Assembly: GCA_021650895.1 (NCBI GenBank)
Contig: CP091278.1
Coordinates: 2,323,659 to 2,387,658, forward strand
Reading direction: 5' to 3'
Source of the DNA: Candidatus Jettenia sp.
Lineage (GTDB): Bacteria > Planctomycetota > Brocadiia > Brocadiales > Brocadiaceae
Length of the DNA: 64,000 bases
This document shows, piece after piece, positions 5,642-33,680 of this stretch. How positions within the stretch are numbered: position 1 is the first letter of the stretch; the number at the start of each line of letters is the position of its first letter. The notes below the pieces were generated by a model. That model was not told where the DNA came from. It did not search any database and was given only the letters and a program-made list of their open reading frames with translations. The translations under genes were made by a program, and so were the position numbers.

Positions 5642-5836
5642 AATCAGGAAAAAATCATGAGCGGTGGCCTGAATCATATAAATTTGTTTTCTTTTGGATC
5701 AGCATCAAGCAACGAATGGAATAACATTCATACCGTATATTTTTATAAACACATAAAACAAATCATAGATATTTGCTTTATCATTATTTAAGCAAATATA
5801 TTGAAACGCTGTATGCACAATCATACATTTTAGATA

Positions 5837-5909
5837 TAGGGCAAGACTTTAGCCTTGCTTCCCGCCAGAATATATACGCCGGGATAGCAGCCCGAAAGGG
5901 TTACCCTAC
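5837..5909. repeat. R1 two-hairpin repeat
   Basis: TAGGGCAAGACTTTAGCC hairpin followed by the partner hairpin CCCGAAAGGGTTACCCTAC. The flank GAATTGAAATTCCTAAACAT and then AAAGAGGCC...GGCGACTT follows, as at other copies. The orientation is reversed relative to the copy at 1171. Confidence 0.85.
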
Positions 5910-6437
5910 AGAATTGAAATTCCTAAACATTTAAAAGAGGCCTTTTCGGCGACTTAAAATACCTATTTTCCCGGCATTGATCTACCCTCTTCACCCCATA
6001 TGCATCAAGCTAAAATATGTAACCAATGAAGAATAACAAACCACCCATAATCTCCCTTGATTCCCCTTTAAAAAACTTATCATTACCCACAAGTTAGGTA
6101 GGGAGCGAAGGCAGAAGCAAGATAAACCACGAAGTACACGAAGAAAGAAGAACGTAGAGAAGCAAGATTTTGCGAAAGATGTAGAGACGCAAGATTTTGC
6201 GTCTTTACAATTGAGGTAGGGGTGTGTTGCTTCGCCTCAAGAAGGGATCGATTATAAAAAGAATTTATTGAGATTTGTAACTCTCTTATTCTTCGTGTAC
6301 TTCGTGTTCTTTGTGGTATTTAAAGATGTGAGTAAGGACAAGTTTTTTAAAGGGGGAAATCCCTTGTTCCCCTTTTTAAAGGGGGTAGGGGTGTGCTGCT
6401 TCATCTCGAGAGGGGATCGATCATAAAAAGAATTTAT

Positions 6438-6997: not shown

Positions 6998-7193
6998 GTA
7001 GGGCAAGGCTTCAGCCTTGCTTCCACGCTTGAGCGTGCACGGGGGACGGCAACCCTAAACAGGCTGTCCGAGAATTCAATCGATCCACAAATGCCATACT
7101 AAATATTGTTATCATGTTAATATTTTGTCAACATATAGTATAGGATTTGTCATGTGAAAGCATTCTCGGACAGCCTGTAAAGGGTTGTCCTAC
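6998..7193. repeat. R1 two-hairpin repeat, interrupted by a MITE
   Basis: The left hairpin GTAGGGCAAGGC...GCCTTGC is intact. The right hairpin, elsewhere CAACCCTAAAGGGTTG, is split at its TAAA loop by the 118-bp insertion at 7060-7177. Confidence 0.9.
7060..7177. mobile_element. 118-bp MITE with 16-bp terminal repeats and TAAA duplication
   Basis: The ends CAGGCTGTCCGAGAAT (7060-7075) and ATTCTCGGACAGCCTG (7162-7177) are perfect inverted complements. The loop TAAA of the R1 hairpin appears on both sides (7056-7059 and 7178-7181), which is the signature of a 4-bp target-site duplication. The inside is AT rich, itself partly palindromic, and codes for nothing. A nonautonomous element moved by a DDE transposase encoded elsewhere is the simplest reading. 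Ends and duplication length are loosely IS5-like, but the family is not established. Confidence 0.85.
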
Positions 7194-8051: not shown

Positions 8052-8125
8052 GTAGGGCAAGGCTTTAGCCTTGCTTCCCTGCATGAATGTACATGGGGGA
8101 GAGCAACCCTAAAGGGTTGCCCTAC
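8052..8125. repeat. R1 two-hairpin repeat
   Basis: GTAGGGCAAGGCTTTAGCC hairpin, spacer, then CAACCCTAAAGGGTTG and CCTAC. Flanked on both sides by the AAAAGAGGCCT(T)...GGC block typical of R1. It is the intact reference for the interrupted copy at 6998-7193. Confidence 0.88.
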
Positions 8126-8173: not shown

Positions 8174-8239
8174 AGCCACGAATGAACATGAATCTTTTCT
8201 TTTCCTGGTATTCATGTCTATTCGTGTTCATTCGTGGCT
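8174..8239. repeat. Imperfect palindrome, AGCCACGAATG ends
   Basis: AGCCACGAATGAACATGAAT is mirrored by ATTCATGTCTATTCGTGTTC and ATTCGTGGCT. It is noncoding, in the gap after the CHRD gene. Confidence 0.75.
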
Positions 8240-30860: not shown

Positions 30861-31592
30861 TTACTCACTATAAACCTGATTTAAAACGATCCTTGCATCC
30901 ACTGTTTTTATGCCTTTTTGATAAACAAGAACGGGATTTAGATCTATTTCACTTATCTCTTCCAGAGAAGTCATAATCCTCGATATCTGTAAAATCGTTT
31001 GGGTTAACGCAAGAACATCCAGGGGTTCTGTACCTCTGAAGCCCCTTAATACTTTAGCTCCTTTCACATCATAGATCATATCTAAAGCCTCTCGCTCTTC
31101 TACCGGGGCAATGCGAAAAGATACATCTTTAAAAATTTCCACAAAAATACCACCCAGTCCAAACATAACAACCGGGCCAAATTGGAAATCTCTCAACCCG
31201 CCAATAATAACTTCTGCAGAAGGCGCAGCCATCTCCTCAATGAGAATTCCATAGATCCTTGCATTTGGTTGTCTTTTCTTTACACTTCTTATGATCTCAT
31301 CGTATGAGGTTCTTATACCTTCCTCATTTCTTACATCAATTTTTACACCACCTACGTCTGTCTTATGGCTAATATCAGGTGAGACAATCTTTAAGACAAC
31401 AGGATATCCGAGAAACTCGGCTGCTTGTACAGCATCTGCAACAGAAGATACAACTCTATACCTTGTACTTGCTATTCCAAAAGTATTGATAAATTCTTTA
31501 GCCTCAGGCTCGAGCATTGGCCGTTTTTGCTGCCGTGTTTTTTGAATGATACCTTGTGCTGTTTTTACATCGTTCGTTGAAGCCGTGTTCAT
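30861..31592 (-). CDS. ADP-forming acyl-CoA synthetase beta subunit-like (ATP-grasp)
   Basis: 243 residues of a single ATP-grasp_5 domain. KIVSPDISHKTDVGGVKIDV is the signature with the ATP and phosphohistidine contacts; IYGILIEEM, GPVVMFGLGGIFVE and EIDLNPVLV complete the fold. It corresponds to the beta subunit of ADP-forming acetyl-CoA synthetase, which forms ATP from acyl-CoA. The alpha subunit (CoA-binding and ligase domains) is not adjacent, so it must be encoded elsewhere or the protein acts alone. Confidence 0.87.
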   Translation of the reverse strand: MNTASTNDVKTAQGIIQKTRQQKRPMLEPEAKEFINTFGIASTRYRVVSSVADAVQAAEFLGYPVVLKIVSPDISHKTDVGGVKIDVRNEEGIRTSYDEIIRSVKKRQPNARIYGILIEEMAAPSAEVIIGGLRDFQFGPVVMFGLGGIFVEIFKDVSFRIAPVEEREALDMIYDVKGAKVLRGFRGTEPLDVLALTQTILQISRIMTSLEEISEIDLNPVLVYQKGIKTVDARIVLNQVYSE

Positions 31593-31964
31593 AAAATTTC
31601 TATAAATTTCGAAGGAGCATGGGTTTTACCGTAAATTTCTATTCTTTCATACTGTTTATTATAACGTTACATCCTAAAATCTTCAAATGATATATCATGC
31701 GCAAGAGAGCTTTCAAATTAGCCACGGATAAAAGCTAATCGCAACATAGAGCCAGAAAGTGGTTGAAAAAACGACCATTTCTATAGATAATGATAAGCGT
31801 AGACATTTTTCTTCCTAACAGTTAAATTAAAAATTTCTGTCAATGGTTATACTATGCTAGATAAGTTACTATGGGTATGGTGGGGTAGTTTCTCAATAAA
31901 GTGTTGTTCAGGTTCAATAATCAGAGTTTATAAAACACTTCCTTTGGTCTTCGTAGAGTAAAAC
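31593..31964. other. Gap with no recognised element
   Basis: AT-rich divergent promoter region between the ATP-grasp gene (minus) and the HAD-HerA fusion (plus). I see no repeat, RNA or gene. Confidence 0.6.
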
Positions 31965-33680
31965 ATGCGATACTATGCTCTTGCTTGTGATTATGATGAG
32001 ACGCTGGCCTCGAAAGGCCAGGTTGATGAAAAGACTTTAGCGGCACTTGAGCGTTTGAAAAATTCTGGCAGAAAACTAGTGCTGATCACAGGCCGTATAT
32101 TAGAAGAACTTATTCACATCTTTCCTCAGATCAGTATGTTTGATAGAGTTGTAGCTGAGAATGGGGCGTTACTCTATAGACCGGCAACCAGAGAGGAGAG
32201 GCTTTTAGGAGAAACACCACCAGAAGAATTTATTCAGGAGCTTCGTAAAAGAGGTATAGATCCGCTTTTTGTAGGCCAATCAATCGTTTCTACTTTACGA
32301 CCACATGAGACCACGGTGCTTGAAGTAATCCGCGATCTTGGACTTGAAATTCAACTCATCTTTAACAGAGACGCGGTAATGATGCTTCCCTCGGGCATTA
32401 ACAAAGCCACAGGGCTGAGCGTAGCATTATATGAACTTGGCTTATCTTCCCATAATGTTGTTGGTATAGGCGATGCCGAGAATGATCACTCTTTCCTTAA
32501 TGTATGCGAGTTTTCGGTAGCAGTTGCTAATGCCCTTCCTAAGTTGAAAGAACATGTCGATTTTGTTACTCATTCAGACCACGGTGAAGGTGTTACTGAA
32601 CTGGTTAACAAACTTATTATCAACGATCTTGATGAGTTTGAACCGCAGTTGGACCGACACGTAATTTTACTTGGTAAGCGTAAGGATGGACAAGAGGTAC
32701 GAATTAAACCTTACGGTTTGAGTATTTTACTCTCCGGAACGTCTGGAAGTGGAAAATCGACTTTTGCAACGGGTTTTTTAGAACGCGTAGCTGAGCATGG
32801 ATACCAATTTTGCATTATCGACCCTGAGGGAGATTATCTGACATATGACAACGCCGTCGTAATGGGGAATAGCAAGCAAGCGCCAAGCGTAGATGAGGTA
32901 ATAAAACTCCTCGATAAGCCTGAACAAAATTGTGTAGTAAATATGCTCGGAATTACCCTTGCGGATAGGCCAGCATTTTTTGAGGTTCTTTTATCCGCTC
33001 TTTTAGAGCTGAGATCGAGGACGGGGAGACCTCACTGGATAATAATAGATGAGACGCACCATATGTTACCATCATCCTTAACCCCTCCCGAATCACTTAT
33101 AATTCCTAAGGACTTGAGCGGAATGTTATTCATTACTGTTCATCCTGATCACCTTGCCCGTGTCATATTATCAGAAATCAGTGTAATAATAGTTATAGGA
33201 GAATTTCCGGGACAGGCCATTCGCGCCTTTAGTGAAATTCTCGGACAAACTCCGCCGTCGGTCCCGGTAAGCAGACTTAAGCCAGGAGAAGCCATAGCCT
33301 GGTGGAGAAAACCGGAAGCCAGCCCATTTTGGTTTCGCAGTATTCCTCCGCGGTCTGAACGCAGACGTCATCTTCTTAAATATGCTGAAGGAAAATTAGG
33401 CACAGATAAAAGTTTTTACTTCCGAGGTCCGGAAAAAAAGCTTAACCTGCGTGCTCATAATCTTATACTATTTATGCACTTAGCTGATGGTATTGATGAT
33501 GATACCTGGATGTTTCACCTTCAAAGAGGAGATTATTCCCGATGGCTTCATGAAGCTATAAAAGACGATGATCTCGCACACGAAGTGAGACGCATTGAGC
33601 AAACAAAGGACATCTCACCTGATAAGAGCCGCTCCTTGATAAGAGAGAAGATTGAAAAACGTTACACGGGTCCTGCGTAA
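31965..33680 (+). CDS. Fusion of HAD-IIB phosphatase and HerA-like P-loop ATPase
   Basis: 571 residues. Residues 1-215 form a Cof/HAD-IIB phosphatase with motif I DYDET (Asp9, Asp11), motif II VLITGR and motif IV GIGDAENDHSFL. A P-loop domain follows, with Walker A GTSGSGKST (258-266), a FCIIDPEGDY strand as in HerA/FtsK-type ATPases and Walker B WIIIDETHH (358-366). The C-terminal 100 residues have a FHLQRGDYSRWLHEAIKDDDLA stretch like DUF5752-type domains. The combination suggests a sugar-phosphate or trehalose-type phosphatase controlled by ATP, but no substrate can be named. Motif I has E where most members have G. Confidence 0.75.
   Translation: MRYYALACDYDETLASKGQVDEKTLAALERLKNSGRKLVLITGRILEELIHIFPQISMFDRVVAENGALLYRPATREERLLGETPPEEFIQELRKRGIDPLFVGQSIVSTLRPHETTVLEVIRDLGLEIQLIFNRDAVMMLPSGINKATGLSVALYELGLSSHNVVGIGDAENDHSFLNVCEFSVAVANALPKLKEHVDFVTHSDHGEGVTELVNKLIINDLDEFEPQLDRHVILLGKRKDGQEVRIKPYGLSILLSGTSGSGKSTFATGFLERVAEHGYQFCIIDPEGDYLTYDNAVVMGNSKQAPSVDEVIKLLDKPEQNCVVNMLGITLADRPAFFEVLLSALLELRSRTGRPHWIIIDETHHMLPSSLTPPESLIIPKDLSGMLFITVHPDHLARVILSEISVIIVIGEFPGQAIRAFSEILGQTPPSVPVSRLKPGEAIAWWRKPEASPFWFRSIPPRSERRRHLLKYAEGKLGTDKSFYFRGPEKKLNLRAHNLILFMHLADGIDDDTWMFHLQRGDYSRWLHEAIKDDDLAHEVRRIEQTKDISPDKSRSLIREKIEKRYTGPA

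Follow-up and report, generated by a model that had tools for sequence, protein, structure and literature searches.

Palindromic targets have been attributed to some members of the IS1182 family in a review by Siguier et al., as cited in two later papers (PMC5678879; PMC4923244). In the available parts of those papers, IS1272 replaces inverted repeats without a duplication, with duplication of the loop appearing only as a possible "pathway c" of the model (Wan 2017, PMC5678879), and stem-loops are deleted by IS1272/TnSha1 (Furi 2016, PMC4923244). Because IS1272 loses its target, the point at which IS1182 transposases attack a palindrome must be guessed from this case. REPs are another kind of palindromic target and, as far as the accessible text goes, are used by insertion sequences (ISs) of five families, IS3, IS4, IS5, IS110, and IS256, with a direct repeat of 3 bases for ISPsy8 and 6 for ISRm22 (Tobes and Pareja 2006, PMC1525189). 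GTAG repeats have been reported from several phyla, including the PVC superphylum, according to the available portion of PMC3733652. No earlier description of the element treated below was found among the matches listed for the open-access literature on IS1182 with a MITE, stem-loop or palindromic target, and on Jettenia repeats.

The insert and its host repeat

The window is the whole 64,000-nt stretch of DNA analysed, taken from the genome of a Jettenia-like anammox planctomycete (3.82 Mb, single contig); its relevant features are collected in Table 1. As described in a first-pass annotation, positions 7056–7181 comprise an insert of 118 bp, with inverted ends that are perfect over 16 bp, and a TAAA on either side. 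The insert is too short for a transposase gene, and CAGGCTGTCCGAGAAT matches the reverse complement of the opposite end at 16 of 16 positions. It lies between the two TAAA copies within the second hairpin of a repeat, R1, built from two oppositely oriented stem-loops and reading GTAGGGC at both outer ends. An intact paralog with a TAAA loop does exist downstream, as claimed in that annotation, although the 8106–8125 given there is slightly off: the symmetric hairpin around the TAAA occupies 8103–8120.

Table 1. Coordinates of the R1 repeats and of the inserted element in the window.
Feature	Positions	Strand	Basis or remark
R1 repeat interrupted by the MITE	6998..7193	+	Pair of oppositely oriented, GTAG-tagged palindromes; sequence on either side of the insert aligns with the uninterrupted copy 8052-8125
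First hairpin of the interrupted R1, empty (GCAAGGC-TTCA-GCCTTGC)	7003..7020	+	Sequence; strict hairpin scan
Left loop copy, TAAA	7056..7059	.	Sequence; intact paralog has a single TAAA at 8110-8113
118-bp MITE, related to IS1182-family elements	7060..7177	.	Further copies in own genome and two Jettenia genomes
Left terminal inverted repeat (TIR) CAGGCTGTCCGAGAAT	7060..7075	+	Exact match
Right terminal inverted repeat	7162..7177	-	Exact match
Right loop copy, TAAA	7178..7181	.	Sequence
Uninterrupted R1 paralog; loops 8064-8067 and 8110-8113	8052..8125	+	Sequence, alignment, folding
Uninterrupted R1, orthologous empty site of a Ca. Jettenia ecosi MITE	5836..5909	+	Loop TTTA 5848-5851; shared flank CGCTGTATGCACAATCATAC at 5807-5826

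Folded as single-stranded DNA, the 26-nt hairpin gave z = -4.5 and the whole R1 as one long hairpin z = -5.5; another R1 copy (5835–5912) folded more weakly (z = -1.4). The MITE-bearing region folded with z = -8.3. An Rfam search of the 5–10 kb portion of the window returned no family. A further intergenic inverted repeat of 20 bp, which is not R1, is found at 8174–8239 (AGCCACGAATGAACATGAAT, 95% complementary). Two TIR-like sites at 31400 (left) and 33237 (right), each with 3 mismatches and spaced 1853 bp apart as in an IS, were rejected as chance matches; they lie in or over coding frames that we take, from their translations, to be ATP-grasp-like and HAD-like, respectively, and a domain search around 31400–33237 found no transposase domain.

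R1 is a GTAG-tagged, dimeric palindrome present in many copies, which fits a REP/REPIN-like repeat and is consistent with the GTAG-tagged REP dimers. The genome contains 12 Y1_Tnp (RAYT-type) matches, and R1-type GTAG hairpins occur in three of the corresponding 12 stretches, and two of the three coincide. About 40 R1 copies, from 40 scored of 346 first-look candidates, were aligned by BLAST within the genome, and nearly all are uninterrupted. The insert is thus not a conserved part of many R1 copies, the possibility named in the first-pass annotation as the one that would refute it.

Related copies and a candidate parent

The 16-bp end, at up to 2 mismatches, occurs 36 times in the genome and once for a reversed-pattern control, so the element is not a chance structure. 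Besides the window MITE, the same genome carries four 118-bp copies at 92–97% identity, a copy belonging to a sister subfamily, and another whose end is degenerate. The survey set comprised 76 two-ended MITE copies from nine genomes (this one and eight relatives): 48 from Ca. J. ecosi (G001), spread over several subfamilies, 10 from a third Jettenia genome (G002), 12 from this genome, and 6 from other genera, one per genome. These dispersed copies, 55 of them between exact 4-nt direct repeats, bear out the identification of the insert as a MITE with the element ends first proposed. One insertion common to this genome (L247) and J. ecosi (L220) has flanks of 105 bases per side that are 100% identical, where the same two species compared elsewhere share 84–99% identity; a recent transfer is possible. 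Another copy (L198) lies within a second MITE, with an ATAG duplication.

No intact parent IS was found in this genome, where domain and protein searches recovered only transposase remnants. Two decayed IS1182 remnants, at 2.684 and 2.777 Mb, contain DUF772/DDE_Tnp_1_6 pieces, and both keep a right end with a TIR like that of the MITE, after which comes TTTAGCCTTGCC, one half of an R1 hairpin; a PF05598 match is located at 1947278–1947475. Full-length ISs with the same termini, for which the first-pass annotation had proposed a search, are found in relatives. The congener G002 has a 1881-bp element (L145) with ends CAGGCTGTCCGAGAA(A/T) and an intact 533-aa transposase, which scores 378 bits against the curated IS1182 model NF033551 (cut-off 270) and exceeds the cut-offs for DUF772 and DDE_Tnp_1_6. 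This element is seemingly located in MITE-like sequence. The MITE ends are common to IS1182-family elements of 1.7–1.9 kb, and identical or almost identical ends are found in Thermodesulfovibrionia, Aminicenantes, and Atribacterota records (L275, L277, L280); transposase matches are present in 20 of 33 genomes of the family. Judged by these shared ends, the parent of the MITE is likely an IS1182-family insertion sequence. Exact 4-nt direct repeats flank two of the eight two-ended full-length IS copies (L275, L280) and are absent from L145, L147, L148, L151, L156, and L277; the parent may differ in behaviour from the MITEs, or those IS copies may be rearranged. IS1182 relatives in other genera often adjoin GGGGTC...GACCCC palindromes (L277, L279, L281, L282, L286), possibly the REPs of the genomes concerned.

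Target sites, empty sites and inverted loop pairs

An R1 arm abuts the 4-nt site on at least one side in 57 of the 76 MITE copies and on both sides in 51, and in the flanked copies the arm ends at the 4-nt loop. The arm test covers the 9 nt next to the site, so that an insertion elsewhere in R1 scores as "no arm"; when the 19 such rows were read by eye, only L190, in an R1-like hairpin with a 5-nt loop, was seen to be of this kind. At the exact insertion point, 35/76 copies restore a strict R1 hairpin, against 0.0095 expected from the window rate of 8 loops per 64 kb. A perfect stem of at least 4 bp surrounds the 4-nt gap in 44/76, against 0.54% of 182,103 control positions, a conservative control because these were drawn from the fetched, repeat-rich loci. 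R1 is a strongly preferred target, yet neither obligatory nor the sole one. Most of the 19 copies without an arm lack a good palindrome; a few are in GGGGTC-type half palindromes and one is the copy inside a MITE (L198). The loop preference suspected from the window copy thus holds for the majority, whereas the idea that the target might always be the R1 loop fails for these 19.

The 4-nt flanks are exact direct repeats in 55/76 copies, reverse complements of each other in 14/76, and neither in 7/76, so the 4-bp duplication first described for the window copy is the rule but not universal. TAAA/TTTA accounts for 40 of the 55 direct repeats, while four of them (TTAA, TATA) are self-complementary, which makes direct and inverted flanks indistinguishable.

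Flanks of 10 of the 18 fetched J. ecosi loci were searched in this genome and in G002. For six loci (L257, L258, L260, L261, L272, L273), both flanks could be aligned to an ortholog in one or both of these genomes, and L265 came close; no clean empty site was obtained for L256, L259, and L267. At L272 and L273, J. ecosi has TTTA-MITE-TTTA and both relatives have an intact hairpin with one TTTA. Empty orthologs with a single loop copy were L309/L311 for L273, L301/L303 for L272, and L317 for L265. The J. ecosi C52 copy, which on the window strand also reads TTTA-MITE-TTTA, is matched by empty sites in the window (5836–5909) and in G002 (L169). The hairpin being intact at the orthologous empty sites, with its loop present once, R1 predates the insertions compared. 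The same order had been claimed for the window copy, which has no usable ortholog, as the region has been lost from J. ecosi and this R1 is absent from G002; here its paralogs suggest that R1 probably came first. An insertion in J. ecosi upstream of a gene that we take to be CHRD-like was at one stage read as a reciprocal insertion into the window MITE's own R1. This reading was dropped because G002 places that insertion in the neighbouring R1 (5836–5909), J. ecosi having lost the intervening DNA. Elsewhere, apparently one R1 loop carries a subfamily A MITE in G002 (L304) and a subfamily B MITE in J. ecosi (L192/L259), and is empty in this genome (L300). That L259 represents an independent second insertion into one loop is only suggestive, the J. 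ecosi left flank not being alignable.

The presence of R1 arms next to most copies (57/76) would also be expected if the insert were a built-in, immobile part of a longer R1 variant. This is refuted by the orthologous empty sites together with the 4-nt duplication, by the 15/76 copies that have their own exact direct repeat and no R1 arm, and by the occurrence of the same ends on transposase-bearing elements, and we give it virtually no credence. Very probably, an IS1182-family DDE transposase acts in trans on the insert, a non-autonomous MITE, and joins it preferentially at the 4-nt loop of a palindrome, usually R1 in Jettenia, where staggered transfer and gap filling duplicate the loop. The transposase would recognise the CAGGCTGTCCGAGAAT ends and mobilise the MITE in trans, a step that we infer. 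The ends would be joined preferentially at the 4-nt loop of a palindrome able to extrude as a hairpin or cruciform, the usual target in Jettenia being the loop of the GTAG-tagged REP palindromes. A strand transfer with a 4-nt stagger, on the 5′ side of the loop on both strands, would then leave gaps whose filling duplicates the loop. The sequences themselves establish the ends, the 4-nt duplication, the single-loop empty sites, the preference for R1, and the ends held in common with an intact IS1182 transposase gene of the same genus. Evidence against it comprises the 19/76 copies without an R1 arm, the 14/76 with inverted and 7/76 with unmatched loops, and the direct repeats at only 2/8 ISs.

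In related genomes most sister copies occupy a loop of this type, suggesting that the mobilising enzyme reads the hairpin. The explanation given above would include recognition of a folded structure and not of the R1 sequence as such; structure and sequence are confounded, since R1 is one sequence family. The transposase could instead read the R1 (REP) sequence, with the loop as the axis of a palindromic recognition sequence. Most sites do belong to one family, C-TWWA-G within GCAAGGC...GCCTTGC, and REP-targeting ISs have a fixed insertion point, which for ISRm22 is the axis of the palindrome in the available text of PMC1525189. Against sequence recognition, the five ISs of the same group in other genera and phyla adjoin the unrelated GGGGTC...GACCCC palindromes, and R1 loops with the arms CAAGGC, CAAACC, and CAACCC are all used. 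We consider sequence recognition a credible but less than even prospect.

The 14 copies with reverse-complementary loop flanks (TTTA|TAAA) are found in J. ecosi (L181, L183, L188, L192, L196, L202, L203, L216, L225), G002 (L230, L233), and this genome (L252–L254). These inverted pairs point to a folded hairpin on which repair or template switching took place. For L257 and L258, each of the two flanks has its ortholog at an empty site with one loop copy, and yet the loops read TTTA|TAAA. The R1 interior is missing from L196 and L202 (L260 and L261 in the wider stretches), where the left flank has turned into an inverted copy of the right; this recalls the stem-loop replacement of IS1272. One tentative account is that the IS1182 transposase enters an extruded hairpin or cruciform and that gap repair at times precedes unfolding of the target, a flank end copying the loop of its own strand to produce an inverted duplication. 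Direct pairs, inverted pairs, and loss of the interior, as with IS1272, would then be three alternative results of a single structure-directed mode of insertion.

Mixed loops could also be produced by homologous recombination between MITEs residing in separate R1 loops, a process also proposed for the imperfect repeats of ISRm22 in the accessible part of PMC1525189. By reading of the flanks, two different inner arms are joined in L252 and L254 and two different outer arms in L225. The flanks of L257 and L258 match one single-copy site with no second locus, and recombination between loci is thus refuted for these two; it is improbable as a general account but may hold for a minority.

The folded-target repair account has another rival, which bears on that account only: the inverted pairs could arise after insertion by quasipalindrome correction, through template switching in the long inverted repeat formed by R1 arm, loop, and TIR, and not as a step of transposition. 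Template switching at quasipalindromes is documented in the literature, so far as the portions available to us show, and L260 and L261, with their missing interior and inverted left flank, agree with it. In G001, the TIRs match perfectly in 9/9 inverted and 18/38 direct copies (Fisher p = 0.006), which a single conversion tract spanning loop and TIR would predict. The association is not significant over all genomes (p = 0.13), and TIR perfection is confounded with subfamily because the inverted share differs between subfamilies (A 4/21, B 5/11, C+D+E 0/16). Nor are inverted copies visibly older, the subfamily B members L192, L202, and L203 showing 98.6–99.3% identity to their nearest kin; inverted and direct copies are about equally close to their kin. 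Our judgement on quasipalindrome correction is evenly balanced.

Comparison with IS1272 and REP-targeting insertion sequences

In Jettenia, dozens of insertions, many with near-identical kin, keep their target, so that the point of attack is marked at the loop boundary and orthologous empty sites show the state before insertion for comparison with the one after it. Repair or template switching on a folded hairpin seems to have left a natural record in the inverted loop pairs, and this is directly testable. The match between MITE and REP loop suggests how one selfish repeat, the REP, becomes a safe landing site for another.

GTAG-tagged REP dimers and REPINs, in the available parts of PMC3733652 and PMC3116915, resemble R1 in their GTAG outer ends, opposed stem-loops, and high copy number; they are the counterpart of the target and not of the MITE, and the words "anammox" and "Kuenenia" are absent from the accessible text of PMC3733652. 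The REP-targeting elements IS1397, ISKpn1, ISPsy8, ISRm22, and ISPpu9 resemble the MITE in that they enter repeated extragenic palindromes at one defined position and are flanked by a direct repeat, as far as PMC1525189 is available. They belong to other families ("IS1182" does not occur in that portion of the text), whereas the Jettenia insert is a MITE. With IS1272, as portrayed in the parts of the sources at hand, the present parent and MITE share the IS1182 transposase family, 16-bp inverted ends, and inverted-repeat or stem-loop targets. IS1272 replaces the stem-loop without a duplication, whereas the Jettenia MITEs have an exact 4-nt duplication in 55/76 copies and keep the R1 stem arms. 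The MITEs therefore depart from stem-loop replacement of the IS1272 type; the IS copies are less clear in this respect (direct repeats in 2/8), and L260 and L261 have lost the interior of their R1.
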